Below, piece after piece: positions 269 through 61,576 of a stretch of 64,000 nucleotides of DNA. The notes below the pieces were generated by a model, which was not told the DNA's origin, ran no database searches, and saw only the letters and a list, made by a program, of their open reading frames with translations. A program made the position numbers and the translations under genes. The stretch lies in assembly GCA_005116835.1 (NCBI GenBank), contig SWDM01000016.1, positions 124,001-188,000 of the forward strand, written 5' to 3'. Source of the stretch: Nitrospira sp. (GTDB lineage Bacteria; Nitrospirota; Nitrospiria; Nitrospirales; Nitrospiraceae). Each line of letters opens with the position of its first letter. Position 1 is the first letter of the stretch.

Positions 269-307
269 TTAACAATCCCGTAACACCGCTGTCATCCCTT
301 CTTAATC
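269..307 (+). promoter_or_regulatory. Candidate Pho box, porin 1
   Basis: Four hexamers in exact 11-bp phase: TTAACA (269), GTAACA (280), GTCATC (291) and TTAATC (302). An 11-bp repeat unit is the known spacing of PhoB/PhoP binding sites. The site ends 70 bases before the porin start. Confidence 0.75.
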
Positions 308-376
308 TGTAGGGAATATCGTCTGGGTCAGACATGACTACCGATAATCTTAAACAGAAATAATGGAGGTATTCGA

Positions 377-1766: not shown

Positions 1767-1805
1767 TTAACAGTTCTGTAACATGGATGTAATGCTCCGG
1801 TAACA
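1767..1805 (+). promoter_or_regulatory. Candidate Pho box, pstS operon
   Basis: TTAACA (1767), GTAACA (1778), GTAATG (1789) and GTAACA (1800) in perfect 11-bp phase. This is the clearest example in the window, ending 38 bases before the pstS start. Confidence 0.85.
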
Positions 1806-1843
1806 GGACAAGGGCATCCTTCTAGATGATGAAAGGAGTCTCA

Positions 1844-8793: not shown

Positions 8794-8812
8794 AGGCACC
8801 TCCTGGAAAAAG

Positions 8813-9313: not shown

Positions 9314-9373
9314 TGTGGTATGCGTCCTACTCCAATTACGTGCCTTTACATTAACTAAGATAGATTCCAACCG

Positions 9374-9401
9374 CGTAAACTCTCTGTAACATGTATGTAA
9401 A
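9374..9401 (-). promoter_or_regulatory. Candidate Pho box, psiE
   Basis: Read on the minus strand, TTTACA, GTTACA and TTTACG follow each other in 11-bp phase (plus-strand 96, 85 and 74 of the 9300s). The site lies 60-90 bases upstream of the psiE start. Confidence 0.65.
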
Positions 9402-43271: not shown

Positions 43272-43310
43272 TGTCACCATTTGTTACGTATCCGTAATGT
43301 ATCCGTAACA
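43272..43310 (+). promoter_or_regulatory. Candidate Pho box, phoB
   Basis: TGTCAC (43272), GTTACG (43283), GTAATG (43294) and GTAACA (43305) in 11-bp phase, 76 bases before the regulator start. This fits autoregulation. Confidence 0.75.
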
Positions 43311-43386
43311 TCCGTGGGATACCCTGCGACGTACATGCAGTCGTGTTTGATCGTGCTAACCCTCGAATTCGATCACTGGAAATCAC

Positions 43387-44097
43387 ATGTCATCCCCTAC
43401 ACCGAAAAAAATACTCATCATTGAAGACGAGCCAGAGATCGCTCAATTGGTGAAGCTGTATCTGGAAAAAGATGGGTTTCGAACCACGATCGCGAAGACA
43501 GGGCCCGAAGGCCTCAAAATGGTCAAAGCAGACCGCCCCGATATGGTCATTCTTGATCTCATGCTCCCAGAAATGGACGGACTGGAGATCTGTAAAAAGA
43601 TCCGCATTGCGCCGGATACAGCCCTACTGCCTGTCCTGATGCTGACCGCCAAGGCCGAAGAATCCGACACCATCATTGGTCTTGAACTTGGCGCGGATGA
43701 CTATGTGAGTAAGCCCTTTAGTCCGAAAGTGCTGGTCACCAGGGTGAAGGCCTTGTTCCGGCGATTGCAGCGATCCGACGAGCCGAAGCACTCTTCCTAC
43801 GCATACGGATCGTTGCTCTTGGACCTCTCGCGGCATGAAGCACTCATCGATGGAGAAGAGATTCTCTTGACTGCAAAGGAGTTTGGATTGCTCGAACAGC
43901 TTCTTCACCACACTGGCCGGGTATTGACGCGCGATGTTCTCTTGAATGCTGTATGGGGCTACGATTACTACGGCACCACCAGAACCGTAGACGTGCACAT
44001 CCGCCGGCTGAAGCTCAAGATCCCGTTACTCGACGACGCTATCATCTCGGTCAAATCGCTGGGATACAAACTCAAAGACCGCAACGCATCCGACTGA
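43387..44097 (+). CDS. phoB: PhoB-like OmpR-family response regulator
   Basis: 236 residues. The receiver has IEDEPE near 12, ILDLMLPEMDG near 57 and Lys in SKPFSP near 107; the winged-helix C-terminus has the OmpR/PhoB pattern (LTAKEFGLLEQLLHHTGRV, RTVDVHIRRLKLK). A four-unit Pho box precedes it, so it is the best candidate for the master regulator of the boxes listed here. No PhoR kinase lies beside it. The exact regulator identity is inferred from family and context. Confidence 0.83.
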   Translation: MSSPTPKKILIIEDEPEIAQLVKLYLEKDGFRTTIAKTGPEGLKMVKADRPDMVILDLMLPEMDGLEICKKIRIAPDTALLPVLMLTAKAEESDTIIGLELGADDYVSKPFSPKVLVTRVKALFRRLQRSDEPKHSSYAYGSLLLDLSRHEALIDGEEILLTAKEFGLLEQLLHHTGRVLTRDVLLNAVWGYDYYGTTRTVDVHIRRLKLKIPLLDDAIISVKSLGYKLKDRNASD

Positions 44098-44136
44098 ATC
44101 TTAGGATCTGCCTATACCTCCTTCGCCCTCAACAAA

Positions 44137-44175
44137 TTAACTCCGGGTTCACAGTGCATTGACCCTCCTGTTACA
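44137..44175 (+). promoter_or_regulatory. Candidate Pho box, acyltransferase
   Basis: TTAACT (44137), TTCACA (44148), TTGACC (44159) and GTTACA (44170) in 11-bp phase, 53 bases before the start. Confidence 0.75.
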
Positions 44176-44227
44176 TGGCCGGTCCAAGCTTCATACAGAT
44201 GAACAAGCTGACCGAGGAGGGTGAGGT

Positions 44228-45061
44228 ATGCCAAGTCTACGCGCCAGCCGTGTAACTCAACTGAAACGAGGAAGCCGACTCGTCCTACAGTTGCTCAAAG
44301 GACTGCTCCTTGTCGGATGCGTCTTCCCGCACCTCCGACCCTCCGAGCAGGATGTGGTCATTGAAAGTTGGTGCCGCGAGGTCTTGGACGTTTTGTCCAT
44401 TCGTCTGAACCTGCGAGGCGAGTGGCCGCCGGAGAAAGTCTCCTCCGTGATGTTTGTCGCCAATCATGTATCGTGGTTGGACATTCTTGCCATCAACGCC
44501 TGTCGGCGTGTGCGCTTTGTGGCCAAGTCAGAGGTGCGGCAATGGCCACTGGTGGGATGGATGGCCGCTCGAACCGGCACAATCTTTCTCAAGCGAACCA
44601 GCCCGCGTGAATGGGCCCGCGTAACAAAATCGGTCTCCGCCTCTCTTCGGCACGGAGACTGTATTGGGCTCTTCCCTGAAGAAACCACGTCGGATGGCTC
44701 AGACCTTCATACATATCATTCCGGATTGTTAGAGTCGGCTGTCGCCTCGGAGGCGCTGATCTGGCCGGTTGGAATCAGTTACCATCGGTTCGACGGCTCT
44801 CTCGACACCGACATCGCTTGTTCCGACAGTCAGTCGTTGGCCTCGTCTATTGTGAATGTTCTCGCTCGACCAGCCACACAAGTGCGGTTAGCTTTTACAG
44901 ATCCCGTCGAAAGCTCGTCCGGGGATCGCCGTGAACTGACAGCCTGGTGCCACCAGTCCATCGAACAGAGTCTGGCAGGCTACCTGCCACCAACCAGGAC
45001 CTCACCCTACCCCCTACAATATCCCACGGACGAATCCTTGCCGCCCTTGACCGCCGCTTGA
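44228..45061 (+). CDS. PlsC/OlsA-like lysolipid acyltransferase
   Basis: 277 residues of the 1-acyl-glycerol-3-phosphate acyltransferase superfamily. Catalytic HxxxxD reads NHVSWLD near residue 80, and the acceptor motif FPEETTSDG near 157 resembles the FPEGTTSDG of OlsA, the second enzyme of ornithine-lipid synthesis. One N-terminal hydrophobic segment. A Pho box precedes it, which suits phosphorus-free lipid synthesis under phosphate limitation, but an ordinary PlsC role cannot be ruled out. No OlsB is visible in the window. GGAGGG precedes the ATG. Confidence 0.75.
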   Translation: MPSLRASRVTQLKRGSRLVLQLLKGLLLVGCVFPHLRPSEQDVVIESWCREVLDVLSIRLNLRGEWPPEKVSSVMFVANHVSWLDILAINACRRVRFVAKSEVRQWPLVGWMAARTGTIFLKRTSPREWARVTKSVSASLRHGDCIGLFPEETTSDGSDLHTYHSGLLESAVASEALIWPVGISYHRFDGSLDTDIACSDSQSLASSIVNVLARPATQVRLAFTDPVESSSGDRRELTAWCHQSIEQSLAGYLPPTRTSPYPLQYPTDESLPPLTAA

Positions 45062-45127
45062 TTTCCCTTCGACGACACCGCATGATTCAGCGGTGATTGC
45101 ATTCGGCTGGTGCAAGCTATTGTGACG

Positions 45128-45427
45128 ATGACACCCCGCTCGACATGGCGTCTCCTGATTTTGTGCTGTCTCGCGATTCTTCTCGTCTCCTGCAGCCGAC
45201 CCCGGGTAGATGCATTCGAAGCCAGTATCGGTCAAATCGAGCAGGATGATTTAATCCGTAAATTCGGCTACCCCCAACGGCTCAAGAAACTTCCGACAGG
45301 AAGCGAAGTGTGGGACTACGAATTCCTGGCAGGGCACTCTCGATGCGTAGGCTATCGCGTATATTTCGATCAAGACCGGCGATCCCAACGGTGGGAACCG
45401 CGAGACTGTCAGACAGGGGCGCACTAA
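45128..45427 (+). CDS. Small lipoprotein, unknown
   Basis: 99 residues from MTPRSTWRLL at 45128; lipobox LLVSC near 22. The mature part (LIRKFGYPQRLKKLPTGSEVWDYEF) has the turn-strand pattern of BamE/SmpA-like lipoproteins and resembles the one at 50798. It follows the acyltransferase by 66 bases and may share its Pho-driven transcript. Confidence 0.6.
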   Translation: MTPRSTWRLLILCCLAILLVSCSRPRVDAFEASIGQIEQDDLIRKFGYPQRLKKLPTGSEVWDYEFLAGHSRCVGYRVYFDQDRRSQRWEPRDCQTGAH

Positions 45428-45458
45428 GAAGGCGGGCAAAGAGCGCGAGGGCGGGACT

Positions 45459-45532
45459 CGAAGTTTTGAGTTCCAAGTTCTGGGTTCTGAGTTGTCCGGA
45501 ACTGACTCAGTCCTCAGCACTCAGCACTTCCT
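45459..45532. repeat. Family B intergenic palindrome (copy 2)
   Basis: CGAAGTTTTGAGTTCC and GGGTTCTGAGTTGTCCGG pair imperfectly with GACTCAGTCCTCAGCACTC and CACTTC. It lies between the lipoprotein and the arsenic operon. Confidence 0.65.
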
Positions 45533-45552
45533 ATGCCGATTGACTATTTTAA

Positions 45553-45584
45553 TTATGTCCAGTAGTCTAGACATATGGACATAA
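45553..45584 (+). promoter_or_regulatory. Candidate ArsR operator
   Basis: An 8-bp inverted repeat, TTATGTCC and GGACATAA, separated by 16 bases, with an inner ATGTC/GACAT pair. The right half overlaps the arsR start codon, so binding would block transcription and translation start. Confidence 0.55.
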
Positions 45585-45946
45585 ATAACGCCCTTGCCGC
45601 CTTCAGTACGCTGTCGCAGGAAACCCGCCTGCGAGTGTTTCGGTTACTGGTCGAAGGTGGACCGTCCGGAGTACCGGCCGGCAGACTGAGCGAGTCCTTG
45701 CATATTCCGCATAATACTCTGTCGTTTCACCTGTCGCACATGAGCCATGCGGGTCTGGTCCTATCGCGGCGAGAAGGCAGATCCGTGATCTACAGTGCTA
45801 ACTTCGAGTTTTTTTCAGGGCTCATTCGCTACATGGTCGAGGATTGCTGCAGCGCCGAATTTGCCAGCATCCGCAACGATAAAAAGCGGAACTGCTCGAT
45901 CATTGAACTTTCACACTGTTGCCAACAGAAGGAGAACGCATCATGA
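45575..45946 (+). CDS. arsR: ArsR-family transcriptional regulator
   Basis: 123 residues with the ArsR winged helix (FSTLSQETRLRVFRLLVEGG, HNTLSFHLSHMSHAGLVLSRREGR). Several Cys in the tail (DCCSAEF near 90, SHCCQQ near 116) could bind As(III) and release DNA. It is the first gene of arsR-arsI-arsC, with ATGA overlap to the next. Confidence 0.88.
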   Translation: MDINNALAAFSTLSQETRLRVFRLLVEGGPSGVPAGRLSESLHIPHNTLSFHLSHMSHAGLVLSRREGRSVIYSANFEFFSGLIRYMVEDCCSAEFASIRNDKKRNCSIIELSHCCQQKENAS

Positions 45947-46416
45947 AACGTTTCCATGTCCATGTTGGGGTTGAAAAACTCGATGAATCCATCCGCTTTT
46001 ACAGCGCCCTCTTCGGTGCAGCGCCGGTCAAAACGAAAACAGATTACGCCAAATGGTTGTTGGAAGACCCCCGCGTGAACTTCGCGATATCCACGCGCGC
46101 AAAGAAGAAGGGTATCGATCACCTTGGGATCCAGGTCGATGAAGAAAGCGAACTGAGTGAGTTGCGCGAACGCCTCAAGGCTGGGGACATGGCCGTGGTC
46201 GAGGAAGGCGAAACGGTCTGCTGCTACGCCCAGTCTGACAAATCCTGGATACAAGATCCCGCTGGAATTCCCTGGGAAGCATACAGAACGATGGCGGATG
46301 CCCAGCTGTTTTCCGGCAAGCCAGATCAGACTGAAACAGCCTGTTGCACGCCGGAAACAATGGGAGAGCCCGATTGCTGCGAACCTTCAGAGAAAACTGC
46401 CGGCTGTTGCGACTGA
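45943..46416 (+). CDS. arsI: ArsI C-As lyase / CadI-type dioxygenase
   Basis: 157 residues, vicinal oxygen chelate fold. The residues known for ArsI are in place: His5, His60 and Glu112 for iron, and a vicinal Cys pair at 93-94 for trivalent organoarsenical. ArsI cleaves the carbon-arsenic bond of methylarsenite. The tail has three further Cys-Cys pairs (ACC, DCC, GCC), which may bind additional arsenic. Overlaps arsR and arsC. Confidence 0.85.
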   Translation: MKRFHVHVGVEKLDESIRFYSALFGAAPVKTKTDYAKWLLEDPRVNFAISTRAKKKGIDHLGIQVDEESELSELRERLKAGDMAVVEEGETVCCYAQSDKSWIQDPAGIPWEAYRTMADAQLFSGKPDQTETACCTPETMGEPDCCEPSEKTAGCCD

Positions 46417-46838
46417 TGAAGTCGGAGATACAGAGAATATTGGTCCTATGCACGGGTAATTCCTGCCGCTCCGTGATGGCCGAAGCGCTGATCAACGATC
46501 TCTGCCGTGGCCGTTATCAAGCATGGAGCGCCGGTAGTGTTCCAGTAGGACATGTTCACATAAAATCTATCGAAACATTGAAGCGGCATGGAATCAATCC
46601 AGGCCAGCCACGCAGCAAGTCATGGAACGAATTTGCGGAACAGCCGTTCGATTTGGTGATTACGGTCTGCGATCAGGCAGAGGGGGAAAGCTGTCCAGCA
46701 TTCCCAGACAATCCCAAGAGGTTGCACTGGAGCACACCGGACCCAGCAAAAGTCACTGGATCAGATGCCGAAATCGACGCAGCTTTTGACAAGGCTTTTC
46801 TTATACTCAAGAACCGCGTCCTGGATGCATTGCCCTAA
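46416..46838 (+). CDS. arsC: Arsenate reductase, LMW-PTP type
   Basis: 140 residues from MKSEIQRILV at 46416, sharing one base with the arsI stop. P-loop LCTGNSCRS (C-x5-R) near 12-18 and a distal Cys pair (VCDQAEGESCP) as in thioredoxin-coupled ArsC. It reduces arsenate to arsenite. No arsenite pump (ArsB/Acr3) is next to it, so export must be encoded elsewhere or the operon serves mainly sensing and demethylation. Confidence 0.88.
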   Translation: MKSEIQRILVLCTGNSCRSVMAEALINDLCRGRYQAWSAGSVPVGHVHIKSIETLKRHGINPGQPRSKSWNEFAEQPFDLVITVCDQAEGESCPAFPDNPKRLHWSTPDPAKVTGSDAEIDAAFDKAFLILKNRVLDALP

Positions 46839-46900
46839 CCCGCATCAGTCATCTTCGCTGCTCCAAGCACCGATGCCTGATGCGAAGCGCGATGCGCGAG

Positions 46901-47031
46901 ACTGGCGGGACAAGCGCGACCGGTGGGAATCGAAGTTCTGAGTACTAAGTTCTGGGTTCTGAGTTATCCGGAACTGACTCATAACTCAGCACTCAGCACT
47001 TCGATTCCCCCCCGGTCCCGCAAACGCCAGT
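46901..47031. repeat. Family B intergenic palindrome (copy 3), extended
   Basis: The core (46930-47005, GTTCTGAGTACTAAG against AACTCAGCACTCAG) is extended by outer arms ACTGGCGGGAC/CCGG and CCGGTCCCGC, and by GGGAATCGAAG against CTTCGATTCCC. The whole palindrome spans about 130 bp between the convergent arsC and 47031 genes. Confidence 0.7.
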
Positions 47032-47402
47032 TACTTCGGCTTCGCAGGAGTTCGAGCCGATTCTTTTGTGGGGAAGCCGGCATCGAGGGGCTCTTTGATT
47101 TGCAGCCCGATATCCTGCAACGCTTTCCCATACTGCCCGCAATACTCACGGGCTCGCGCAGGCGCCTGTTCGTATTTCTCCAGACAGGCCCGGTACGACG
47201 TCAGGAGTAAAGTCGCCTCGTTGTACACCGCGGTAGCCGCTTCGTCTTGCCGGAACTGTTGACATTGAATCGCCGCTTCTCGATCGACCAGCGTCTCACC
47301 CGGCATTTTCCCGCATGCGATATCCATATACTTCGATGGACGCACACAGCCTCCTGCAATACACAGCAGCGCGCACGACACCAGTACAGCGAACTTCTTC
47401 AT
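47031..47402 (-). CDS. Small lipoprotein, unknown
   Basis: 123 residues from MKKFAVLV at 47402 with lipobox CIAGGC near 18, and mature Cys residues in pairs (IACGK, IQCQQ, RACLEK, EYCGQ) that may form disulfides. A candidate two-unit Pho box lies 95 bases upstream. No family recognised. Confidence 0.6.
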   Translation of the reverse strand: MKKFAVLVSCALLCIAGGCVRPSKYMDIACGKMPGETLVDREAAIQCQQFRQDEAATAVYNEATLLLTSYRACLEKYEQAPARAREYCGQYGKALQDIGLQIKEPLDAGFPTKESARTPAKPK

Positions 47403-47495
47403 CACAGTGGCAGCCAATCGAACTCCCTCTTCCAGGCCTATCATCATTACTTCGCACCATCATGAACCTGCGCCATTACGCCTGACACACTGGCG

Positions 47496-47512
47496 TGTTA
47501 CAGGTTTGTTAA
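47496..47512 (-). promoter_or_regulatory. Candidate Pho box (two units), lipoprotein
   Basis: On the minus strand TTAACA then GTAACA, 11 bp apart, the same pair as in the porin 1 box. The third unit is weak. It lies between the divergent lipoprotein and DksA/TraR-like genes. Confidence 0.5.
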
Positions 47513-47703
47513 CTTCTTCCTTTCAGAGACCGGATGCCTCCCACTCGTGACGCAGCCCTCATCATCCATAGACACCTCACCCGCCTCGCTCCTCTCGCAA
47601 GTCGCGCGAGTCTCGCACGAATTGTGTTACACAAATTTGATCTCCTGCTGATCCTGAGGTGCCTTGAACGGAGTAGAAGTACATCCACAGGGAGGTGACG
47701 CAA

Positions 47704-48138
47704 ATGTCAAACATAAGCTCATCGAACCATGTTTCAAGAATCACTCCGACGATTCCCCCACGCATCCACAGGCGGAGAGGGATAAATTATGCCGATCTTC
47801 AGGACGAACTCAAGAGACTTCGAACAGCACTCTCACATGAAACCATGATGTCCCAACTGATTACGACAGAGCCTGAGCTCTTTCCAGACTTGATCGACCA
47901 AGCCGCCGCTGAGCATGAGAATGACGTCGCTCTGTCCGTAAAGTTGCTCGCCATTGAAAAGCTTCGCAGGATCGAACAGGCGCTCGCATCCCTGCAGGCA
48001 CGTTCGTACGGAACCTGTTCCCGCTGCAGTCACGAGATCCCTCCTGCCAGACTCAAAGTGCAGCCTGATTCGCTCTACTGTGTCCCCTGTCTCACTGTGA
48101 TCGAGCAACAATCAGCCGGAAACTCATTCTATGCCTGA
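47704..48138 (+). CDS. DksA/TraR-type zinc-finger protein
   Basis: 144 residues from the ATG at 47704 (GGGAGG eight bases upstream). A helical hairpin (about 25-95) and a C4 zinc finger (YGTCSRCSHEIPPARL, then YCVPC) match DksA/TraR-like RNA polymerase-binding proteins. The coiled-coil tip lacks the plain DxxDxA of DksA, so the exact role is open. Confidence 0.78.
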   Translation: MSNISSSNHVSRITPTIPPRIHRRRGINYADLQDELKRLRTALSHETMMSQLITTEPELFPDLIDQAAAEHENDVALSVKLLAIEKLRRIEQALASLQARSYGTCSRCSHEIPPARLKVQPDSLYCVPCLTVIEQQSAGNSFYA

Positions 48139-48204
48139 TGCCATCACCACCCTGCCCGCATACCGGAGCCCAGCTGCGCCCTCCTCGGTCACCTGGCTCC
48201 CCGC

Positions 48205-48237
48205 GCTTGTCCCTTCTTGCCCCGAGAAGGGACAAGC
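48205..48237 (+). terminator. 13-bp hairpin after the DksA-like gene
   Basis: GCTTGTCCCTTCT pairs with AGAAGGGACAAGC around a seven-base loop. It lies 67 bases after the stop; there is no T-run. Confidence 0.5.
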
Positions 48238-48311
48238 CCCGGTGTTCAAGTTCCTAAAGACGGCCGCCATACGGTTCACCGCAACTCCCAACCGCGCCAT
48301 AAGGAGAAGTT

Positions 48312-48527
48312 ATGCAATGCACCCGCTGTGCCGGTCTACGAGTACCTGAGATCATCTGCGAAGGAGGAACCAGAATCTCTGCCCTCCGATGCGTCCATTG
48401 CGGAGACATCGTCGACCAGGTGATTATCCTGAATCGCCGCCGCCGCAGATATCCAAAACCAAGCCGAGGCCGAACGCCCATCTTCGGAAGCGATCGGTGG
48501 AAAAAGAATCAGCCAACGCTCGTGTAA
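48312..48527 (+). CDS. Small zinc-ribbon protein (copy 3)
   Basis: 71 residues behind AAGGAG. CTRC near 3-6 and CVHCG near 27-30 form a four-Cys site, then a basic tail (RRRRRYPK). Related in size and style to 11653 and 29147. Unknown role. Confidence 0.65.
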   Translation: MQCTRCAGLRVPEIICEGGTRISALRCVHCGDIVDQVIILNRRRRRYPKPSRGRTPIFGSDRWKKNQPTLV

Positions 48528-48658
48528 TTCAGGTTTGTGAGACAGCGCCGCTCTTCAACTCAGATCGTCAACTCAAACGATGGTTGCCTGACACCGTTTT
48601 CTTCACGCATTTGTGAGTGACACTCATCGGCATGCGGAGTCGTTAAGCCCAGGGATTG

Positions 48659-48748
48659 GCGGGACTCGAAGTTCTGAGTACTAAGGGTTGAGTCAGTTCC
48701 GGTCAACTCAGAACCTAGAACTCAGCACTCAGAACTTCCAGTCCCGCC
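48659..48748. repeat. Family B intergenic palindrome (copy 4)
   Basis: GGCGGGACTCGAAGTTCTGAG on the left and CTCAGAACTTCCAGTCCCGCC on the right, with GAGTCAGTTCC/GGTCAACTC inside. It separates the convergent zinc-ribbon gene and phoX. Confidence 0.7.
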
Positions 48749-48847
48749 AGTCACGCCCCGCTCTCTTATAGAGGCTCGGCGTACGCGCCGGTCGTTCCGA
48801 CGCGCACGCCACGTTGACTGAGCGGAAAACACCTGGGTCACTGTCTC

Positions 48848-50371
48848 TTAGCGCTGAACCCGAAAGGGAATCTTGAACCCGGTGATCTTGATGATGTCGT
48901 CCGTTGGATAGTCATCGAACTTCGGCATCGAACTATCCTCACTATGTTGGATTGACAGGTACGCGGTTTTGCCATCAGCCGTGAACTTAAAACCCGTCGG
49001 CTCCGCCGAGGTATCCTTGACCGACAGAATCTTCACGCAGCCGTCTGTCTTGATGTCTCGGTCCGCGCCATCCGGCAGGCAGGCGAAGATGTCGCCGTTC
49101 GGATTGTCCTCGATCACATAGTGATTGCCGGTCTTCGGCTGAAACGCAAAGTTATCCGGCTGATTCATATCCTGATCGCCCTCCACAAACCGGTTTACGA
49201 CGACGGTTCGTTGAGCCGCGTTCGCAGTCAGGGGAGCGGTATCCACGCCGCAGAGGACTTCACCGTAATTGCCCCCGTCGGCCAGTCCGGTATTCGTCCA
49301 GCAAAAGCGAACACCTGGGCCTTCAAACTCAGGATCCAGTTCCAAGTCTTCCGGACGATAGTAGCCGGTTGCGCCGGCCGTATTGGCGTCGGTCCTGGCA
49401 TTCGCGGCGCTCACGTTGATCCAGGCGCCGTTCCCGATTTCACAACCCTGCCCGAACTGCTGTGTGGTGCTCTGGCACGATACCTGTAATGCGTAGACAT
49501 TGCCCGCGGTCAACGGTGACTCAGAGAGTGATCCAATCGGGGTGTTGACCGTCCTAGGAGCTGCCGGCACGAACTTGAACATCGCACCGCCGTCAGCATT
49601 GGCAGGGGTTCCAGGGCGGAGTTCATCTCCAGCGTACACGACGCCTTCCGGAGTAATCCCGATCCCTTCCCACGCCATCTTCGGCAGTGCCGTGCGCTTG
49701 ACGATCGACGTGGAAGGAAGTCCGTTCTCATCGATGATGGTTCCCAGGGTACGGTCTGTAATCGTTTGGTTCGTCACGTTCAGCGGGTTGATGATCTCGT
49801 AGGCTCCACCATCGCTGGCTTCTTCAGTGGCGAGAATGGTCTGCCACGGCGTTCGACGAATACCGTCACACGCGATCGTCCCGCGAAGGATGGTATCTAC
49901 CGAGCCGTCCGATAGCTTGATCCGCTGCACAGCAGGGTTAAATTTCTTGATCAGTCCTCCCGGCAAGAACGTGCCGAGATCCTGCCGTCCGCCCTCGATA
50001 CAGAAGATGAGATGCGTCGGACTCTCATCGGATGGCCAGAAAGCGAACATGTCCGCCGCGTTCCCGGCATTGCGTGTCACGTATTCCGCTTTGAGGCTAT
50101 CCGCCAGGAGGACCTGCTCCTTGGCTTTCTGATCTGGCGTGCGGTAGTTTCCCGTGGTCGGCGTGGCAGATGGCCCCAGCGGGCCGCCGACCCCGAACCA
50201 ATGCATCGAACTGTTGCGGAGTCTCTGCTCGACGCGCGCGCCGAAATCGTGACTGTCTTCGTCGTCCGCCTGCACCGGCAACGCAGGCAACGCCAGCATC
50301 GCCATAGCCAGCGAGACCTTCGCCGCCGAGAGCCCCCATTTCACCATTCGTTTTTTGAATTTTGCCATCAT
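48848..50371 (-). CDS. phoX: PhoX-family alkaline phosphatase (DUF839)
   Basis: About 507 residues from MMAKFKKRMVKW at 50371 (AAGGAG close upstream). A signal peptide ends near LPVQADD; it has Lys-Lys-Arg but no twin-Arg motif, unlike the Tat-exported PhoX known elsewhere. The mature protein has the DUF839 pattern (TPWQTILATEEASDGGAYEI, EDLELDPEF, EDNPNGDIF) of a six-bladed propeller that binds Ca and Fe. It releases phosphate from organic esters outside the cytoplasm. Confidence 0.82.
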   Translation of the reverse strand: MMAKFKKRMVKWGLSAAKVSLAMAMLALPALPVQADDEDSHDFGARVEQRLRNSSMHWFGVGGPLGPSATPTTGNYRTPDQKAKEQVLLADSLKAEYVTRNAGNAADMFAFWPSDESPTHLIFCIEGGRQDLGTFLPGGLIKKFNPAVQRIKLSDGSVDTILRGTIACDGIRRTPWQTILATEEASDGGAYEIINPLNVTNQTITDRTLGTIIDENGLPSTSIVKRTALPKMAWEGIGITPEGVVYAGDELRPGTPANADGGAMFKFVPAAPRTVNTPIGSLSESPLTAGNVYALQVSCQSTTQQFGQGCEIGNGAWINVSAANARTDANTAGATGYYRPEDLELDPEFEGPGVRFCWTNTGLADGGNYGEVLCGVDTAPLTANAAQRTVVVNRFVEGDQDMNQPDNFAFQPKTGNHYVIEDNPNGDIFACLPDGADRDIKTDGCVKILSVKDTSAEPTGFKFTADGKTAYLSIQHSEDSSMPKFDDYPTDDIIKITGFKIPFRVQR

Positions 50372-50649
50372 CGACTCCTTTTCACATTTCCTCACTGTCC
50401 CGGACGAAACCAGCAACAGTGAGCGTGCCGTAATCCGCACCGGCACATGTAATTGATTGACTACTCTTGCCTGATTCCTTACTGCCATAGGCGTTTTCCT
50501 CCTTGCTCCATGCGTGCATGGCTAAGGACTGCGGCTTGCAAACAAAGAAGAAGCGGATGCCGGGTCACGAGACGGTCCGAAGAAGCTGCAGTCTTCTCTT
50601 TTCCGGCTCGTTGTCGGCACTCTCACCCGAAGCACTGTCACAGAAGCCC

Positions 50650-50699
50650 GTTACAAAATGATCTTCCGATCCTCAAAAACTTGTAACAAAGGCGTTAAG
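50650..50699. promoter_or_regulatory. Candidate Pho box between phoX and lipoprotein
   Basis: On the plus strand GTTACA (50650), GTAACA (50683) and GTTAAG (50694) share an 11-bp phase with weaker units between. The minus-strand reading (TTAACG, GTTACA, TTGAGG, AAGATC, GTAACG) is also phased. It could serve either gene; it is nearer to the lipoprotein. Confidence 0.5.
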
Positions 50700-50797
50700 A
50701 GATGAGTGCTCCCGGATCATGAGCAAGTCGAACATACGCTTGAATCGGCTTGATGAGAAAGAGTAGGGTGATTCAGTCGAAGGATGGAGATTCGCCG

Positions 50798-51214
50798 ATG
50801 AAAAACGGACGGACATGCGCTCGACTGTGTTTCCTCCTATATGCTTTTCCGCTGGCGCTGCTCGGTCTTCTTACGGGTTGTGTCTCGGCCCCCGATCCTC
50901 AGGATTGGATTCGTGTCGGTGCGACGACAAAGAACGAGGTGGTCGCACGATACGGGCAGCCGGATATGGTGATCGCTTCCCCTGACGGTGACACCGCCAT
51001 CTACCGCCCGACCGCATCCGGGCCTTCTGCTACGCGAATTGAAATCCCCATCGCCCAGGCCGGCCCATTCGGAGCCGCCACAACAGGCATGCAATCGATC
51101 AATCCTGGGTTAGGCGCCAAAGATCTGAACAGAAAGACGAAGGAACGGTTGCGGAAGGAAATGCGTATCCGCTACGATGATCGAGGCGTTGTACAGGAGC
51201 TGTCTTCTCCTTGA
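50798..51214 (+). CDS. BamE/SmpA-like small lipoprotein
   Basis: 138 residues from the ATG at 50798 (GGAG upstream), lipobox LLTGC near 26. The mature part begins WIRVGATTKNEVVARYGQPD, a turn typical of SmpA/OmlA-like domains, followed by a Gly/Ala-rich linker and a basic strand. It likely sits in the outer membrane; function unknown. Convergent with phoU2. Confidence 0.65.
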   Translation: MKNGRTCARLCFLLYAFPLALLGLLTGCVSAPDPQDWIRVGATTKNEVVARYGQPDMVIASPDGDTAIYRPTASGPSATRIEIPIAQAGPFGAATTGMQSINPGLGAKDLNRKTKERLRKEMRIRYDDRGVVQELSSP

Positions 51215-51257
51215 TCTGCATCATTCACACGGACTTCTACCACCACCTTCTCGGCTT

Positions 51258-51920
51258 TCATTGATCGGCCACCAGATGCCGGATAATCTTGCCCTCCACC
51301 ATGTAGACGACGAGTTCAGCGATGTTCGTCGCATGGTCAGCAATCCGTTCGTAATACTTGCCGATGAACGTAAGGCGTGTTGCCCTCGTAATGGAGGTTG
51401 AATCTTCCATCATAAATGAGAGGAGTTCTCGGAAGAGTTGCTCGGTAAGGTCGTCGACATAGGCATCGTCCCGGCAAACTTTCCGCGCCAATTCGACATC
51501 GCAGTTCACAAAAGCATCCAAGCATTCTTTGACCATCTGAGTCGTCCAGTCCGCCATTCTCGGTATATCGATATAGGGTTTGAGCTGTGGCTCTTCGTTC
51601 AACTCGATCGCGCGTTCAGCGATGTTTTCGGCCATGTCGCTCATCCGTTCAAGCTCCATCGATATCTTCATGGTCGTGGTGATAAATCTGAGATCCCCCG
51701 CCCTCGGATGATGGAGGGCCAACAAGCGGAGGCAGGTCTCGTCGATCTCGACATCCATGACGTTGATCAGCATGTCGTTTTCCACGACGCGAATCGCCAG
51801 GTTCGAATCTCGCTCGGTTAAGGCTTGCAAGACGTCCTGCAATTGAGATTCGACTGAGCCGCCCATCAGCAAGAGCTTATTTTTGAGATCATTCAGCTTG
51901 ATATCGAGATGTCGTTCCAT
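51258..51920 (-). CDS. phoU: PhoU (copy 2)
   Basis: 220 residues from the ATG at 51920 (GGAG upstream). Both PhoU repeats are intact ([29 protein letters not shown]) and long blocks match copy 1 ([12 protein letters not shown]). It stands apart from pst genes and follows a 44-residue membrane protein by 36 bases. It may tune a different partner than the Pst-linked copy. Confidence 0.9.
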   Translation of the reverse strand: MERHLDIKLNDLKNKLLLMGGSVESQLQDVLQALTERDSNLAIRVVENDMLINVMDVEIDETCLRLLALHHPRAGDLRFITTTMKISMELERMSDMAENIAERAIELNEEPQLKPYIDIPRMADWTTQMVKECLDAFVNCDVELARKVCRDDAYVDDLTEQLFRELLSFMMEDSTSITRATRLTFIGKYYERIADHATNIAELVVYMVEGKIIRHLVADQ

Positions 51921-51956
51921 CGCTCTCTCCAAACTTTCAGTCTGAAGCTTACCTGC

Positions 51957-52091
51957 TCAACCCTCTGCCCTTGTCCGCTCTTTCCATCGGCCAGGGTTCA
52001 TGATTGTGCTGAGCCCCAACACCGCGATGATGATCAAGAAGAACATGAAAGACACCATGAGAAAAAACGTGCTGCGTAATCCCGTGATCAT
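51957..52091 (-). CDS. 44-residue single-pass membrane protein
   Basis: MITGLRSTFFLMVSFMFFLI and a further hydrophobic run form one long membrane helix, followed by a short basic tail (MNPGRWKERTRAEG). A strong AGGAGG lies nine bases before the ATG at 52091. It is directly upstream of phoU2 on the same strand, so the two are probably co-expressed. Confidence 0.65.
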   Translation of the reverse strand: MITGLRSTFFLMVSFMFFLIIIAVLGLSTIMNPGRWKERTRAEG

Positions 52092-52239
52092 GATGATCCA
52101 CCTCCTCTTCTTCTTAGGGGAGACCGCGACTCAGACAATCGAATCGGCACTGATCACGACGTCGGCGGACGTCATAACGATTCCAGTCAACGTACCAAGC
52201 CTGATGGGGAAATTGTACCCAGACTCAGGTCACTACGCC

Positions 52240-52267
52240 GTTGCAGTTTGGTTATGAGTCTGTAACA
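52240..52267. promoter_or_regulatory. Candidate Pho box, phoU2 region
   Basis: GTTGCA (52240), GTTATG (52251) and GTAACA (52262) in 11-bp phase, about 150 bases upstream of the small membrane gene. Orientation is ambiguous and the match is weaker than others. The rest of 52092-52475 shows nothing. Confidence 0.4.
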
Positions 52268-52475
52268 TTTCGATCTTGGCAGGTGTCGGCTATTCAACCG
52301 CCTACGAAAGCCTGGCCACATTGCGCTTCGGCAACGGCCCAAGGAGGTACGGTAGAATCGCCCAGACTGTGGCTAGAGCATCCTCAACGATTGCACGCCT
52401 TTTTGCCAAGCGCCTGATACTGCTCACAGTCGCTTCCGTAATGACCCAGTACTCCACAGCACACGTTCTTTCAAT

Positions 52476-52514
52476 GTAACTCCATCTTAACCTTTCTTTG
52501 ATCTTCCTCTAATC
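52476..52514 (+). promoter_or_regulatory. Candidate Pho box, choice-of-anchor I gene
   Basis: GTAACT (52476), TTAACC (52487), TTGATC (52498) and CTAATC (52509) in 11-bp phase, with a CATAGT -10-like box shortly after. Confidence 0.7.
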
Positions 52515-52576
52515 GGCCTCCGTCATAGTGTGGACCCGCGTAAATGGATACGTTGATCCAACCAGGAGGGAGCCAC

Positions 52577-54181
52577 ATGAAGGTCGAACAGGTAATCGTC
52601 GGAATAGGTTTGCTCAGTCTGATGGGACTGCCGATGTCCGCGGAGGCGTCGGACTCGAAGTCCATTACACTGAAACAGATCGGTCGCTATAGCGCCGGTA
52701 TCGGGACCACGACCAGGGCAGAAATCTCCGCCTTCGATCCGACGTCCAAGCGATTGTTCAGCATCAATCTTGAGTTGAAGCAACTTGATATCGTGGACAT
52801 CGGCGCTCCAGAGTCGCCTGTTTTGGCCCAGACTGTTTCGCTCGGTGGTAACCCCAACAGCGTGGCCGTTCACGACGGCATTGTTGCCGTGGCCATCGAA
52901 GGCACGACGAAGACCGACCCTGGGACAGTGAAGTTCTTCAACACCAGCGGTGCGTTGCTCAACACCCTCACCGTCGGAGCCCTGCCAGACATGCTGGTCT
53001 TCTCGCCGAACGGCAAGTGGCTGCTCGTGGCGAACGAAGGTGAACCCAGCAGCTATAACAACAACCCTGTGCCATCCGTGGACCCTGAAGGATCGGTCAG
53101 CATCATCGACATGACGCCAGGCGTGAACAGCCTCACGCAACTCAATGTCAGAACGGCGACATTCAGCCTCGCCATTCCGCAGGACAACCAATCCAGCATC
53201 CGCATTTACGGTCCCAACGCGACGTTTGCCCAAGACATTGAACCGGAATACATCACCGTGTCCCATGATTCCAAGACCGCCTGGGTCACGCTACAAGAAA
53301 ACAACGCGATCGGCATCCTGGATATTTCAACGGCCACCTTTACCAAGATCGTTGGGCTCGGCTTTAAAGACCACTCCCTCTCCGGAAACAAATTGGATGC
53401 TAGCGACCGGGACGTGCCAGGATCGAGCAACAACGGCATCATCAACATCCGCAACTGGCCGGTGCTCGGGATGTACGAGCCAGATGCGATTGCCTCCTAT
53501 CGCGTAGAGGGGGAGACCTATCTCCTCACGGCCAATGAAGGCGACACGCGCGACTATCCCCCTGGCTTCAGCGAAGAAGCGCGCGTCGGGACACTCACCC
53601 TGGATGTCGCGGCCTTTACCGCCCAGGGGTATCCCGACGTGACCACTGGAGCAAATGGTCTTCGCAACAACGACAACCTCGGACGGCTGACAGTGACGAA
53701 TGTGAACGGCGCCAAGGAACTCGATACCGACACGGAGTTTGAACGCCTCTACGTACCAGGAGGGCGATCCTTCTCCATTCGTCGCGTTGACGGGACACTG
53801 GTCTACGACAGTGGCGACGATATCGAACAACATACGGCGACACTGGTCCCCACACTCTTTAATTCGCAAGGAACCGCCGATACCTTCGACACCAGAAGCG
53901 ACAATAAAGGCCCAGAACCGGAAGGTCTCGCGATCGGCAAAGTCTCCGGCAGAACCTACGCCTTCATCGGCCTCGAGCGAACCGGCGGCGTGATCGTCTA
54001 CGACATCACCGACCCAACCGAACCGATATTTGCCACCTATATCAATACCGCCCCGACCGACCTTTCCCCGGAGGGACTCTTCTTCATCAAGGAAGAAGAC
54101 AGCCCAAACGGCAAACCTCTCTTGGTGGTGTCACACGAAGTCAGCAACACCGTCACCATCTTCGAGATCGTCAAGGATTGA
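52577..54181 (+). CDS. Choice-of-anchor I family exported protein
   Basis: 534 residues from MKVEQVIVGIG at 52577 (AGGAGGG upstream), signal peptide ending near MSAEAS. The mature chain is a beta-propeller-like protein (FDPTSKRLFSIN, NPNSVAVHDGIVAVAIEG, PDMLVFSPNGKWLLVANEGEP, NEGDTRDYPPGFSEEAR, GPEPEGLAIG) characteristic of this family, some members of which have phosphatase or 5'-nucleotidase partners. A Pho box precedes it, so a role in extracellular phosphate scavenging is likely, but catalysis is unproven. Confidence 0.8.
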   Translation: MKVEQVIVGIGLLSLMGLPMSAEASDSKSITLKQIGRYSAGIGTTTRAEISAFDPTSKRLFSINLELKQLDIVDIGAPESPVLAQTVSLGGNPNSVAVHDGIVAVAIEGTTKTDPGTVKFFNTSGALLNTLTVGALPDMLVFSPNGKWLLVANEGEPSSYNNNPVPSVDPEGSVSIIDMTPGVNSLTQLNVRTATFSLAIPQDNQSSIRIYGPNATFAQDIEPEYITVSHDSKTAWVTLQENNAIGILDISTATFTKIVGLGFKDHSLSGNKLDASDRDVPGSSNNGIINIRNWPVLGMYEPDAIASYRVEGETYLLTANEGDTRDYPPGFSEEARVGTLTLDVAAFTAQGYPDVTTGANGLRNNDNLGRLTVTNVNGAKELDTDTEFERLYVPGGRSFSIRRVDGTLVYDSGDDIEQHTATLVPTLFNSQGTADTFDTRSDNKGPEPEGLAIGKVSGRTYAFIGLERTGGVIVYDITDPTEPIFATYINTAPTDLSPEGLFFIKEEDSPNGKPLLVVSHEVSNTVTIFEIVKD

Positions 54182-54215
54182 AAGTGAAGCACGCAAGACG
54201 GTAGAGAGAAAAGAG

Positions 54216-54275
54216 AAACAGGTCGGGAGCCTCCATCGCCTCCAGGCGCTCTGGAATTGACTCCCGACCCGTTTG
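54216..54275 (+). terminator. Long stem-loop after the choice-of-anchor I gene
   Basis: GGTCGGGAG (54221) pairs with CTCCCGACC (54261), enclosing a smaller hairpin. It lies 40 bases after the stop, but no T-run follows. Confidence 0.5.
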
Positions 54276-54372
54276 CTTCCACTCACAGTCAGAGTCGTAG
54301 GCTATAAGCTGCGGAGGGCTCCAGAGTGCCAGTGAAGGTCGCTTCTCACGGACATCGCTAATGATGACTTGG

Positions 54373-54648
54373 CTAAGGATGGGTCAGATCGCGCTGCTCG
54401 TGTCGAGGGGGTCTGTGGTGGTACGGACTCAGCAGGTCTTTCACCTGCTTGATGGCCAGGACTTGAATAAAGTCTTTGATGCGTGCTTCTTGCTCAAGCT
54501 GGTTCGTTGTAGTGCTCAGAAGATTTCCGACTTCGGATATCGGACAAGAGAACTCTTCAGCGAGATGCTTCACGATATCGTGCCACATCGCTTGCTGGCG
54601 CTCGAACGCCGCTCTCTTTTCCATCTCATTTGCAATTGGTACATCCAC
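54373..54648 (-). CDS. DUF3562-like small protein
   Basis: 91 residues, helical, with HLAEEFSCPISEVGNLLSTTTNQLEQEARIKDF-type order (key residues EARIKDF near 55) typical of DUF3562. The function of the family is unknown. From 54649 to 55011 I see no gene; the stretch near 54700-54860 is AT-rich relative to its surroundings. Confidence 0.6.
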   Translation of the reverse strand: MDVPIANEMEKRAAFERQQAMWHDIVKHLAEEFSCPISEVGNLLSTTTNQLEQEARIKDFIQVLAIKQVKDLLSPYHHRPPRHEQRDLTHP

Positions 54649-55011
54649 AGGAATACCAATATCCTACTGAAAAGATCAAATCCTCTACTCCGTCTATTGC
54701 CATATCCAACCGAAGCCTAACTAACGCAGCAATAAAAAAACAACAGGAAAGGCGATAATGGGTCAATTTAGCATCGCACCATAGCATTCTTGCCAATCAA
54801 AAAAAGGTCAATAGTGAACACTTTTCGATAGAACTTGTGCGCCATAAAATTACTGGTGGAATGTACATGCGGCGGGATAGCTGCAATCAAACTGACCCAC
54901 TACTGGAAAGCGGAAAGCCAACGCAATGAGATGTCGCCAGTAGCATCTGGCTCTGTAATTCATGGAGTTCCCAGGCACATAATGTCACCTTATGCCGTCT
55001 CTTTTCTCTTA

Positions 55012-55433
55012 TCAGAGATGCTTAGACTTCGATTTCCCCGCATCGAACACTTTCTTTACGGCTGCCCGCAAGGTGACCTGATTGATCGGTTTTGACAGGA
55101 TGTCGGACACGCCTTGCTAGGAGCCTGTCCGACATTGACCGTTCTACTACGGCGAATGATCCGCACCCACCTGCATCGTTCTCGGCCAGAAAAAATCCTC
55201 AATGTATTCCAGCGAATACACCTCCGGTTTTTTCCAGCCTGCGGCCTTGCATCTGGCTGCGCCTCTTTCGCCTCGTCACGAAGGCAACGTCGGACAGGCT
55301 CCTAACGGAGAACCCTTGCTCTCTCGGTCGTCACTTCGCCGCTCAACACGATGACGGAGGCATGGGGAAACTGGGATCGGAAATAGGGAATCGCCTCCAT
55401 CCCACACCGCTCCTATGACACCATGTCTGTGAC
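55012..55433 (-). pseudogene. Response-regulator remnant split by an inverted-repeat element
   Basis: Minus-strand reading from 55433 gives VTDMVS, a stop codon, then ERCGMEAIPYFRSQFPHAS and VIVLSGEVTTERARVLR up to 55305. After the element the frame resumes at 55116 as QGVSDILSKPINQ and VTLRAAVKKVFDAGKS, ending at 55012. These are the phospho-acceptor strand, the Ser strand and the Lys-Pro loop of a receiver domain. The first half of the domain is missing, one stop lies inside, and a 187-bp element interrupts the rest, so the gene is dead. Confidence 0.75.
55118..55304. mobile_element. 187-bp MITE-like element
   Basis: Perfect 16-bp terminal inverted repeats (TAGGAGCCTGTCCGAC and GTCGGACAGGCTCCTA) bound a non-coding interior. 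It interrupts a receiver-domain reading frame. If TA was the target, the frame on both sides joins correctly with one copy of TA. No transposase is inside, so it would move only in trans. Confidence 0.75.
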
Positions 55434-55445
55434 TTCTAACTTGTG

Positions 55446-56222
55446 CTAAGCAGGGCGCCGCCTCACCAGGCCAAGCGCCGCGAGGCTGGTGGCGAACAAC
55501 AGAAATGCGGCTGGTACGGGAACTGGGGCGGCAACGGTCACGCCAGGTGAACTGGCAATCTCGCCGGCACTGGAAATGGTGATCTGTCCTGAGGTAGCCC
55601 CGCTCGGATTACTCCCACTGTTCAGCGTGATGATTCCTGAGCCTAGGCTCAGGCTTCTGCTTGAGATTCCCGTTCCTGTCGTGAGGGTCAGTCCGCCCCT
55701 GCCCGACAGACTGAGGTCTGTAATCCCGATGTCACCTGAAAGATTGATGGGCTCGACCGCCCTGATCCCAAGAGGCCGGATTCCTGAATCAATGGTTCCC
55801 CCGAGATTAATCTGATTCGCGGTAAGAGACACAGCTCCCCCTCCACCCAACACATTCAACTGTGTGAGTGCCATGGAACCCACGGCCACCATCTCCAAGC
55901 CGCCACTGCCACGCAGATCGATCGTTCCGGTGAACGCGATGTTGCCCTTCGACAACAAGCCCAACGTGCGAGTCCCAAAGATCGAGAGGTTCGTGCCGTT
56001 TATGTCATCGAACGTAAAGATGCCGGCATCAGAGACCGGATCGAGCACACCGCTGTAGGAAGCTCCCCCGGTAAGCGCAAGCGTGTCGGTATTGATACTG
56101 ATGGATTCTGAGGTGTTCAAGGCTCCAAGCGACGTGAAGGCCCAAGGATCTAGCACAGCGGCTTGGCTTGGAAGGGCCCAGAGAGAGAACAGAACGGTCC
56201 AGACACGTATCATCCACCGCAT
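55446..56222 (-). CDS. PEP-CTERM-like exported protein
   Basis: 258 residues from MRWMIRVWTV at 56222, signal peptide ending near PSQAA. A repetitive beta-solenoid-like body (ISINTDTLALTGGASY, ITLNSGSNPSGATSGQ) ends in VPVPAAFLLFATSLAALGLVRRR: Pro-containing motif, membrane helix and Arg cluster, as in PEP-CTERM sorting signals cut by exosortase. Probably exported to the cell surface or matrix. Confidence 0.75.
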   Translation of the reverse strand: MRWMIRVWTVLFSLWALPSQAAVLDPWAFTSLGALNTSESISINTDTLALTGGASYSGVLDPVSDAGIFTFDDINGTNLSIFGTRTLGLLSKGNIAFTGTIDLRGSGGLEMVAVGSMALTQLNVLGGGGAVSLTANQINLGGTIDSGIRPLGIRAVEPINLSGDIGITDLSLSGRGGLTLTTGTGISSRSLSLGSGIITLNSGSNPSGATSGQITISSAGEIASSPGVTVAAPVPVPAAFLLFATSLAALGLVRRRPA

Positions 56223-56417
56223 AGACACCATCCTTCCTACAATTATGCGCCTCGTTGTTCGATAAGCGACGGCTGCTCAGACTCAGTCCTGCTCAGGAAC
56301 CTGTATTTTGCGAGGTGGGAAATATACTGATGAGGGCAAGAGAGTGCCAGTTAAGATTGTGTTAACGGAGGAGCAGCGGGACAGGCACCGCCGCAGACGG
56401 AGGAGCCAGTCTGCGAA

Positions 56418-56456
56418 TTTACGCAAGAGTAACAAGCCTTTAACCACAACGCAATG
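56418..56456 (+). promoter_or_regulatory. Candidate Pho box, CBS gene
   Basis: TTTACG (56418), GTAACA (56429), TTAACC (56440) and GCAATG (56451) in 11-bp phase, 55 bases before the start at 56512. Confidence 0.65.
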
Positions 56457-56511
56457 CCAGGCTGGTAGGATTAGGCCAACACATATAATCAATAATAAAG
56501 GAGGAGAACAG

Positions 56512-56895
56512 ATGATTACAGTCAGTCAACTCATGAAACGGGATCTCGTGTCGGTAGACTCAGGCACATCAGTCGTCGAGGCCGCCAAGTTAATGAGAGC
56601 CTGCAATGTAGGAAGCGTGTTAGTATTCCACGATCACCAGATCATCGGCATCCTCACGGAATCGGACGTGGTGAAAAAATTCGTGGGAGCGGACAAGGCT
56701 CCCTACTACGTCCCGGTCGAAGACATCATGAGCAGTCCAATCATCGGCATCGAAGAGCGCCGTCCCCTCACCGAAGCGGCAAACCTTATGGAGAAGCACC
56801 AAACACACCACCTGGGTGTCACCAAAGGCGGGGCGGTTGTCGGCATCCTCTCCGTCCGCGACCTGCTCCATCCAGTCTCGACCGACGAATTCTAG
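56512..56895 (+). CDS. CBS-pair protein
   Basis: 127 residues from the ATG at 56512, set by AAAGGAGGAG; an in-frame upstream start is unlikely because the Pho box lies there. Two CBS motifs (SVDSGTSVVEAAKLMRACNVG, then IIGIEERRPLTEAANLMEKHQ) form one Bateman module that usually binds adenosyl ligands. Stand-alone CBS pairs act as sensors of AMP/ATP or related nucleotides. The Pho box links it to phosphate status, as adenylate levels would. Confidence 0.82.
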   Translation: MITVSQLMKRDLVSVDSGTSVVEAAKLMRACNVGSVLVFHDHQIIGILTESDVVKKFVGADKAPYYVPVEDIMSSPIIGIEERRPLTEAANLMEKHQTHHLGVTKGGAVVGILSVRDLLHPVSTDEF

Positions 56896-56910
56896 CCCCC
56901 CCGAGGAACG

Positions 56911-57007
56911 TTTGTTTGGTTTGTCTGGTCTGTTTGGTTTGTTTGGTTGGTTGGTGGAAACTAACCAAATGAACCAAATCCACCAAACAAACCAGATGAA
57001 CCAGATT
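56911..57007. repeat. Family A intergenic palindrome (copy 5)
   Basis: TTTGTTTGGTTTGTCTGG units on the left face ACCAAATGAACCAAATCC and CAAACAAACCAG units on the right. It lies between the convergent CBS and regulator genes and touches the last codon of the latter. Confidence 0.7.
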
Positions 57008-57713
57008 AGGCTCGCAGCTTGTATCCCACACCCCTGACGGTCAGGATAAATGTCGGGCTGGCCGGATTCTGTTCGATTTTCTGCCGCAGCGAATGAATAT
57101 GCACGTCGAGCGCATGCTCTTCGAGCGCATACCCTTCTCCCCAGACTCGATTGAGCATTTCCTGGCGAGAGAATACTCGGCGTGGCGATTCGAGGAACTG
57201 CTTGAGAATTTGGAATTCCTTCGGGGTCAGATCGACGGCATGACCGCTGACGAGGACTTCATGACGATCAAGGTCCATCCGCAGATTCCCCGCGCTATAC
57301 TGGGTGTTCGTCGCCACGCCGGAATCTTGCCGTCGCAGGATTGCGCGCACTCGCGCGACCAGCTCTCGAACACTCTGACTGCAGACGACCAAATCTACAT
57401 CTTGATCGTACTCTTGAAGGCACTCGTCCTCCTGGCAGGAACTCGCACCTTCCTCCACCGCAACGATTGGAACGTTTGTCAGCGTACTCATCCGACGAAA
57501 GTTGCCGATGGAACTGGACTGACGATCGAGAATGATCAAGGATGGGACGTGCCTTTTCGCTTCAGTGAGGGCGACGGATTCCGTGGACACCATCATGCCG
57601 CGATACCCGCTCGATTCTAATCCCCTCTTCACTGACTGTGCGAACGACTCGGATCTCAGAAAGATGAGGACCGAGTCGCGTTCGACCGCTATGGATGGCT
57701 TTTGGATCAACAT
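57006..57713 (-). CDS. OmpR-family regulator with atypical receiver
   Basis: 235 residues. The C-terminal winged helix is canonical PhoB/OmpR (LTPKEFQILKQFLESPRRV, ALDVHIHSLRQKIE). The receiver has the Asp in IILDRQ but no acidic pair (FLRS where DD is expected) and no Lys at the end of the domain (VVCSQS). Such receivers usually work without phosphorylation. A Pho box precedes the gene, divergent to pstS2. Confidence 0.78.
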   Translation of the reverse strand: MLIQKPSIAVERDSVLIFLRSESFAQSVKRGLESSGYRGMMVSTESVALTEAKRHVPSLIILDRQSSSIGNFRRMSTLTNVPIVAVEEGASSCQEDECLQEYDQDVDLVVCSQSVRELVARVRAILRRQDSGVATNTQYSAGNLRMDLDRHEVLVSGHAVDLTPKEFQILKQFLESPRRVFSRQEMLNRVWGEGYALEEHALDVHIHSLRQKIEQNPASPTFILTVRGVGYKLRA

Positions 57714-57750
57714 GGCACTGTCATCTGTAGCCTACACACAACACCGAATC

Positions 57751-57778
57751 ATTACACAGTTATTAAATATTCGTTAAA
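57751..57778 (-). promoter_or_regulatory. Candidate Pho box, regulator 2
   Basis: On the minus strand TTTAAC, TTTAAT and TGTAAT in 11-bp phase, 38-65 bases upstream of the start. Confidence 0.6.
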
Positions 57779-57785
57779 TCAGACG

Positions 57786-57909: not shown

Positions 57910-57914
57910 TTGAG

Positions 57915-57953
57915 TTAACACTGATTTAACAATTCGTTGACCCATTGGCAATG
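57915..57953 (+). promoter_or_regulatory. Candidate Pho box, pstS2
   Basis: TTAACA (57915), TTAACA (57926), TTGACC (57937) and GCAATG (57948) in 11-bp phase, with a TAAATT -10-like box about 10 bases on. The resulting leader would be about 115 bases. Confidence 0.8.
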
Positions 57954-57991
57954 CGACTTCCGTAAATTTGTGAGGGGAAGGCTGTATCATT

Positions 57992-58069: not shown

Positions 58070-58087
58070 CTTGGGAGGACAAAAGGC

Positions 58088-59149: not shown

Positions 59150-59150
59150 G

Positions 59151-59932: not shown

Positions 59933-59940
59933 CCTGAACG

Positions 59941-60013: not shown

Positions 60014-60025
60014 GTCTGCAACCCG

Positions 60026-61456: not shown

Positions 61457-61515
61457 GCATCCTCCAGGCCTCTATACGCAACGAGCTTCTGATCTAGGAG
61501 AGAATAGGGAAGAAT

Positions 61516-61543
61516 GGTTACAGACAGGTTACGATAGGGTCCA
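61516..61543 (-). promoter_or_regulatory. Candidate Pho box, porin 2
   Basis: On the minus strand TGGACC, GTAACC and GTAACC in 11-bp phase, ending 60 bases before the start. Confidence 0.6.
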
Positions 61544-61576
61544 GGACGGGTAAACTCGTGGAGGGAGCGGGCGCGA

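Follow-up and report, generated by a model that had tools for sequence, protein, structure and literature searches.

A Putatively Phosphate-Controlled Gene of the olsA Lineage That Appears to Have Lost Its olsB Partner in a Nitrospira Genome

Does a Pho-type box in front of an OlsA-like acyltransferase gene mean that a Nitrospira remodels its lipids with ornithine lipids when phosphate is limiting? The question is raised by a stretch of 64,000 nucleotides, hereafter the window (contig SWDM01000016.1 of assembly GCA_005116835.1, positions 124,001 to 188,000), for which an earlier note had proposed such remodelling. The genome (3.94 Mb, 24 contigs, completeness 99.3%) was searched for an N-acyltransferase partner, and the locus was compared with those in 175 genomes of the same family. 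The ornithine-lipid pathway appears to be present in relatives and broken in this bacterium. The features of the window are collected in Table 1.

Table 1. Features of the window, with positions counted from its first nucleotide; box scores are those of a matrix trained on the leaders of relatives.
Feature	Position	Strand	Evidence or remark
Box before OprP/OprO-type phosphate porin (377-1684)	269..312	+	score 21.2; PF07396
Box before pstS (1826) of pstSCAB-phoU	1767..1810	+	score 22.4; PstS/PhoU
Box before psiE (8813-9370; listed start probably too early)	9358..9401	-	score 21.0; PF06146
PhoB-like response regulator, no kinase gene adjacent; kept next to olsB in 6 relatives	43387..44097	+	PF00072 + PF00486
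Pho-type box, TTAACtccggg TTCACagtgca TTGACcctcct GTTACatggcc	44137..44180	+	four 11-bp direct-repeat units
Shine-Dalgarno-like GAGGAGGG, from olsB leader	44214..44221	+	aligns with CAGGAGGG before G066 olsB
Inferred deletion junction, olsB leader fused to olsA ATG	44227..44228	.	ends of DNA homology
olsA-lineage lyso-lipid O-acyltransferase, 277 aa, without OlsB partner	44228..45061	+	PF01553
Catalytic HX4D motif HVSWLD, residues 80-85, intact	44465..44482	+	alignment
Codon 152 GAA, Glu in place of Gly of FPEG substrate motif	44681..44683	+	homologue alignment
Small conserved lipoprotein, end of ancestral cluster	45110..45427	+	synteny
Weaker box before second pstS (58088)	57915..57958	+	score 14.7; PF12849
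Box before second phosphate porin (60026-61456)	61511..61554	-	score 20.5; PF07396

The acyltransferase ORF is real and intact, with no stop and no frameshift. It matches the Pfam Acyltransferase family PF01553 with an E value of 2.9e-22 and carries the HX4D motif, in agreement with the acyltransferase with HxxxxD described before. In NCBIfam, the protein is matched best by two equivalog models for OlsA, with 124 and 116 bits against cut-offs of 300. Because the intact orthologue of the relative G030, which shares 69% identity with the window protein, reaches only 134 and 123 bits against the same two models, the 300-bit cut-off is uninformative for this lineage. The sole PDB match, the PlsC of Thermotoga maritima (5KYM, E 2.9e-9), has the HX4D motif and the fold family in common with the window protein. 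The latter differs from PlsC in that it scores 84.6 bits with TIGR00530, under the cut-off of 102.95, lacks the arginine of block III (FPEETT instead of FPEGTR) and is not the housekeeping copy of the genome, which encodes four other PF01553 proteins. The motif FP[E/S]G[T/V], described as substrate-coordinating (PMC8319176), is also altered. The earlier note wrote this motif as FPE-TTSDG; the actual residues are FPEETTSDG, and the gap masked a Gly152Glu replacement at a position where 24 of the 24 homologues alignable there, and likewise all eight orthologues, have glycine. No mutagenesis work on the FPEG motif was found in the literature.

The acyltransferase was found in nine of the 175 family genomes and OlsB also in nine; most relatives lack the acyltransferase gene. 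In all eight other olsA carriers, olsB is located directly upstream of olsA and overlaps it by 28–40 nt, and the window's genome is the only acyltransferase carrier without olsB. One OlsB carrier, G154, has no listed olsA, and its match is interrupted by the end of the contig (position 2). The OlsB protein of G030 matches PF13444 with an E value of 1.6e-36, and the OlsB equivalog models match it below their cut-offs. Since the acyltransferase stands directly behind olsB in every other carrier, the resemblance to OlsA that had been noticed is supported as common descent.

The neighborhood of the gene occurs in three states. The order is regulator–olsB–olsA–lipoprotein in six relatives (G066, G153, G146, G155, G152, and G105), regulator–olsA–lipoprotein in the window, and regulator–lipoprotein, with the lipoprotein gene directly after the regulator, in four (G024, G025, G012, and G030, whose ols genes lie elsewhere). 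In G104, the two parts of the cluster are about 2.7 kb apart. These states of a phosphate-switched lipid-remodelling operon at one locus constitute a natural test of the role of the O-acyltransferase after loss of its partner, and the relatives with the complete operon lend themselves to lipidomics at low phosphate. Following the cluster, the window encodes an HTH_20/ArsR-like regulator, a glyoxalase-like protein, and a low-molecular-weight phosphatase, possibly an arsenate reductase (45575-46838); these genes also adjoin the PhoB-like regulator in G024 and G025.

The first half of the earlier proposal, a four-unit Pho box starting at 44137 that confers phosphate control, stood up well. The box begins exactly at this position, and the ATG of olsA lies 91 bp from it. 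Statements about the box across the 3.94-Mb genome are based on a pattern search with four KTNAC-N6 units, in which this box was the only match with zero mismatches. Four sites with one mismatch were found, all of them on the window's contig within about 100 kb, and two precede pstS and a phosphate porin. Since sites with two mismatches hardly exceeded the reversed control (21 vs. 13 in total), only those with zero or one mismatch are meaningful. A matrix was also trained solely on the ols leaders of relatives, excluding the window. It gave the box a score of 22.5, while the best score in 100 simulated 64-kb windows averaged 12.0, with a single outlier at 22.9. Five separate sites in the window, preceding olsA, pstS, an OprP-like porin, psiE, and a second porin, scored above 20, and the sixth-best value in the simulations never exceeded 10.3. 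Similar sites occur in the pst promoters of relatives, and the box precedes the first ols gene in all nine carrier genomes, the window included; in the eight relatives it is located 89–96 bp before the ATG of olsB. An E. coli-type box was rejected, as the CTGTCAT pattern had no match at the olsA locus, where the box is a TTAAC/GTTAC direct repeat. Bacillus-type Pho boxes consist of TT[A/T/C]ACA repeats every 11 bp, and both the unit sequence and the spacing are as in the window box. The predicted phosphate control of olsA is well supported because pstS, two phosphate porins, and psiE carry the same box within the window.

Taken as a region, positions 1-9401 and 43387-61554 of the window form a dense phosphate island with pstSCAB-phoU, a second pstS, a second phoU (51258-51932), two OprP-like porins, psiE, a PhoX-like phosphatase (48848-50488), and the PhoB-like regulator. 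Medium-scoring boxes were also observed at genes for a choice-of-anchor I protein (52476-54181) and a CBS-domain protein (56418-56895), which are possible new Pho genes.

The regulator adjacent to olsA has the PhoB model TIGR02154 as its best NCBIfam match (221 bits vs. a cut-off of 296). In contrast to the Bacillus-type Pho system, the putative regulator of the box is PhoB-like, under the PhoB equivalog cut-off. The genome encodes two PhoB-like regulators; the second, on contig C16, is followed by a HAMP-PAS-HisKA kinase that resembles PhoR. The box is presumably bound by such a regulator and expression raised at low phosphate. Three 11-bp repeats (GTTACgtatccGTAATgtatccGTAAC) at 43277-43320, ahead of the PhoB-like regulator, suggest autoregulation; they have no counterpart before the regulator in relatives.

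The second half of the proposal, a working ornithine-lipid remodelling in this organism, was not supported by the genome search for OlsB or OlsF that the earlier note had suggested; their absence is the genomic part of the outcome that the note itself had named as refuting. The PF13444 domain had no match in the genome, which excludes OlsF as well, the OlsB protein of G030 found no match when used as a query, and an OlsB profile gave a best E value of 0.4. A relocated or fragmented olsB was therefore rejected; tblastn against the window detected none either. A third route to ornithine lipids, by OlsH of the GH3 family, operates independently of OlsB in planctomycetes (PMC12493201). The OlsH-type GH3 domain (PF03321) is absent from the window's genome, as is the betaine-lipid enzyme BtaA (PF11899). 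With OlsB/OlsF and GH3/OlsH all missing, no ornithine lipid would be made by any known route, and the glycine of block III is mutated in addition. An olsA gene with a Pho box, then, does not predict ornithine lipids. None of the papers searched links ornithine lipids to Nitrospira. The relative G030 encodes a GH3-family protein (L154, G030:C196:28088-28954) besides olsBA.

The DNA in front of olsA indicates how the partner could have been lost. Homology to the olsA gene of G030 begins exactly at the start codon (44228), and homology to the olsB leaders of relatives stops one nucleotide before it. When aligned at the ATG, the window leader and the olsB leader of G066 share 66 identities over about 94–96 nt, a match that none of 1000 shuffles equaled. 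Six of the seven comparisons with olsB leaders gave this same shuffle result and the seventh gave 4/1000, while the match to the sequence upstream of the G030 olsA was no better than chance (69/1000). The unrestricted local alignment with the G030 leader was borderline (2/2000 shuffles as good), and the homology rests on the alignments fixed at the ATG and on the remaining relatives. A Shine-Dalgarno leader such as that of the window is missing immediately ahead of olsA in G066 and G030. The simplest history would be a deletion of olsB in place, from ATG to ATG. Horizontal gain of a lone olsA was considered and rejected, since the genes on either side, for the regulator and the lipoprotein, match those of the ancestral cluster. 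Both the deletion and Gly152Glu were seen in one genome of the species.

We consider it probable that the locus is an ornithine-lipid operon under phosphate-starvation control whose first gene was lost in place, leaving olsA orphaned. The ancestral order would have been PhoB-like regulator, box, olsB, olsA, and lipoprotein. Removal of olsB from its own start codon to that of olsA would have left its promoter and ribosome-binding site to drive olsA directly. At low phosphate, a PhoB-type regulator, either the neighbor or the C16 paralogue with its PhoR-like kinase, would bind the 11-bp repeats and induce an O-acyltransferase whose substrate, lyso-ornithine lipid, is no longer supplied. With this substrate gone, the enzyme is probably decaying, as Gly152Glu suggests, or acylating another lyso-lipid, e.g., lysophosphatidate.

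The locus is of a known kind, the Pho-controlled olsBA operon, and an orphan olsA is an unusual variant of it. As in the proteobacterial olsBA operon, often phosphate-controlled, there is a PF01553 protein with HX4D and a phosphate-type control, and the relatives of the window have the same olsB–olsA order with overlapping frames. The olsA of Pseudomonas aeruginosa has been linked to phosphate limitation, as cited in PMC11631085. The window differs from the proteobacterial operon in the absence of olsB, the replaced glycine of block III, and a box of TTAAC-type 11-bp repeats. The OlsA-like SalA, which acts in the synthesis of sulfur aminolipids together with an as yet unknown N-acyltransferase (PMC8319176), is another enzyme of the OlsA type that works without an OlsB homologue. 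Its catalytic motif is HX5D and FP[E/S]G is retained, whereas the window protein has HX4D and has lost the glycine.

Among the alternatives for the present state of the gene, a decaying relic, expressed at low phosphate and yet enzymatically dead, is a serious candidate, though we would put it somewhat short of even. Besides the loss of a glycine kept by every homologue alignable there, the window protein departs from the other eight orthologues at four positions where these are all identical, compared with one such change in G030; however, G066 and G104 have six unique changes each and retain olsB. Selection was examined on a codon tree of nine sequences. The average dN/dS on the window branch was 0.28, significantly below 1 (LRT 11.3) and slightly higher than the background of 0.18, a difference that was not significant (LRT 2.1). 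Relaxed selection on the window olsA was therefore rejected. The value below 1 and the intact frame speak against a dead gene, and olsA may still be useful. Nonetheless, dN/dS cannot separate decay from re-use because the window branch also spans the time before the loss of olsB.

Re-use of the orphan, Pho-controlled enzyme for the acylation of lysophosphatidate, as by PlsC, or of some other lyso-lipid, which would change the acyl chains of phospholipids during phosphate starvation, is a more tentative reading. The intact HX4D motif and the purifying selection on average are consistent with it, as are a promoter fusion in place with a good ribosome-binding site and the bifunctional OlsA reported for R. 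capsulatus in a title cited within PMC6298996. Against PlsC activity stand the missing block III arginine, the Gly to Glu change, and the TIGR00530 score under the cut-off; the other four PF01553 proteins of the genome and the absence of this gene from most relatives also argue against re-use.

That ornithine lipids are still made, with olsB in an unassembled gap or with an unrelated N-acyltransferase that supplies the lyso-lipid, is improbable. A division into 24 contigs leaves gaps, and a moved olsB could be hidden by one elsewhere; however, the genome is nearly complete, PF13444, OlsB profile, and GH3 matches are all absent, and the ancestral site itself is assembled, without olsB, within a 773-kb contig. 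A novel N-acyltransferase, if present, would escape the searches made, and precedents are found in the OlsB-independent OlsH/GH3 route of planctomycetes (PMC12493201) and in the unidentified N-acyl step that pairs with OlsA-like SalA (PMC8319176, PMC11631085). A box match is located before a GNAT–ACP–ligase–FabG operon at C8:222106, but this GNAT matches PF00583 weakly and lies inside an exosortase/polysaccharide cluster. It is very doubtful that the orphan enzyme and an N-acyltransferase unrelated to OlsB, e.g., that of this boxed operon 54 kb away, make an amino lipid without phosphorus, of a kind not yet described, when phosphate is limiting.

The operon just mentioned (L157, G000:C8:216000-228000) is preceded by a one-mismatch box at about 6107 on the minus strand and encodes a GNAT protein, a polysaccharide deacetylase, an acyl carrier protein, an AMP ligase, and a FabG-like protein; its location within the exosortase/polysaccharide cluster makes phosphate-controlled envelope chemistry possible. 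A second one-mismatch box, at about 6451 on the minus strand of L156 (G000:C8:196000-208000), lies 67 bp before an operon for a two-domain oxidoreductase, a heparinase-like protein, a glycosyltransferase that resembles WecG by eye, and the exosortase XrtD.
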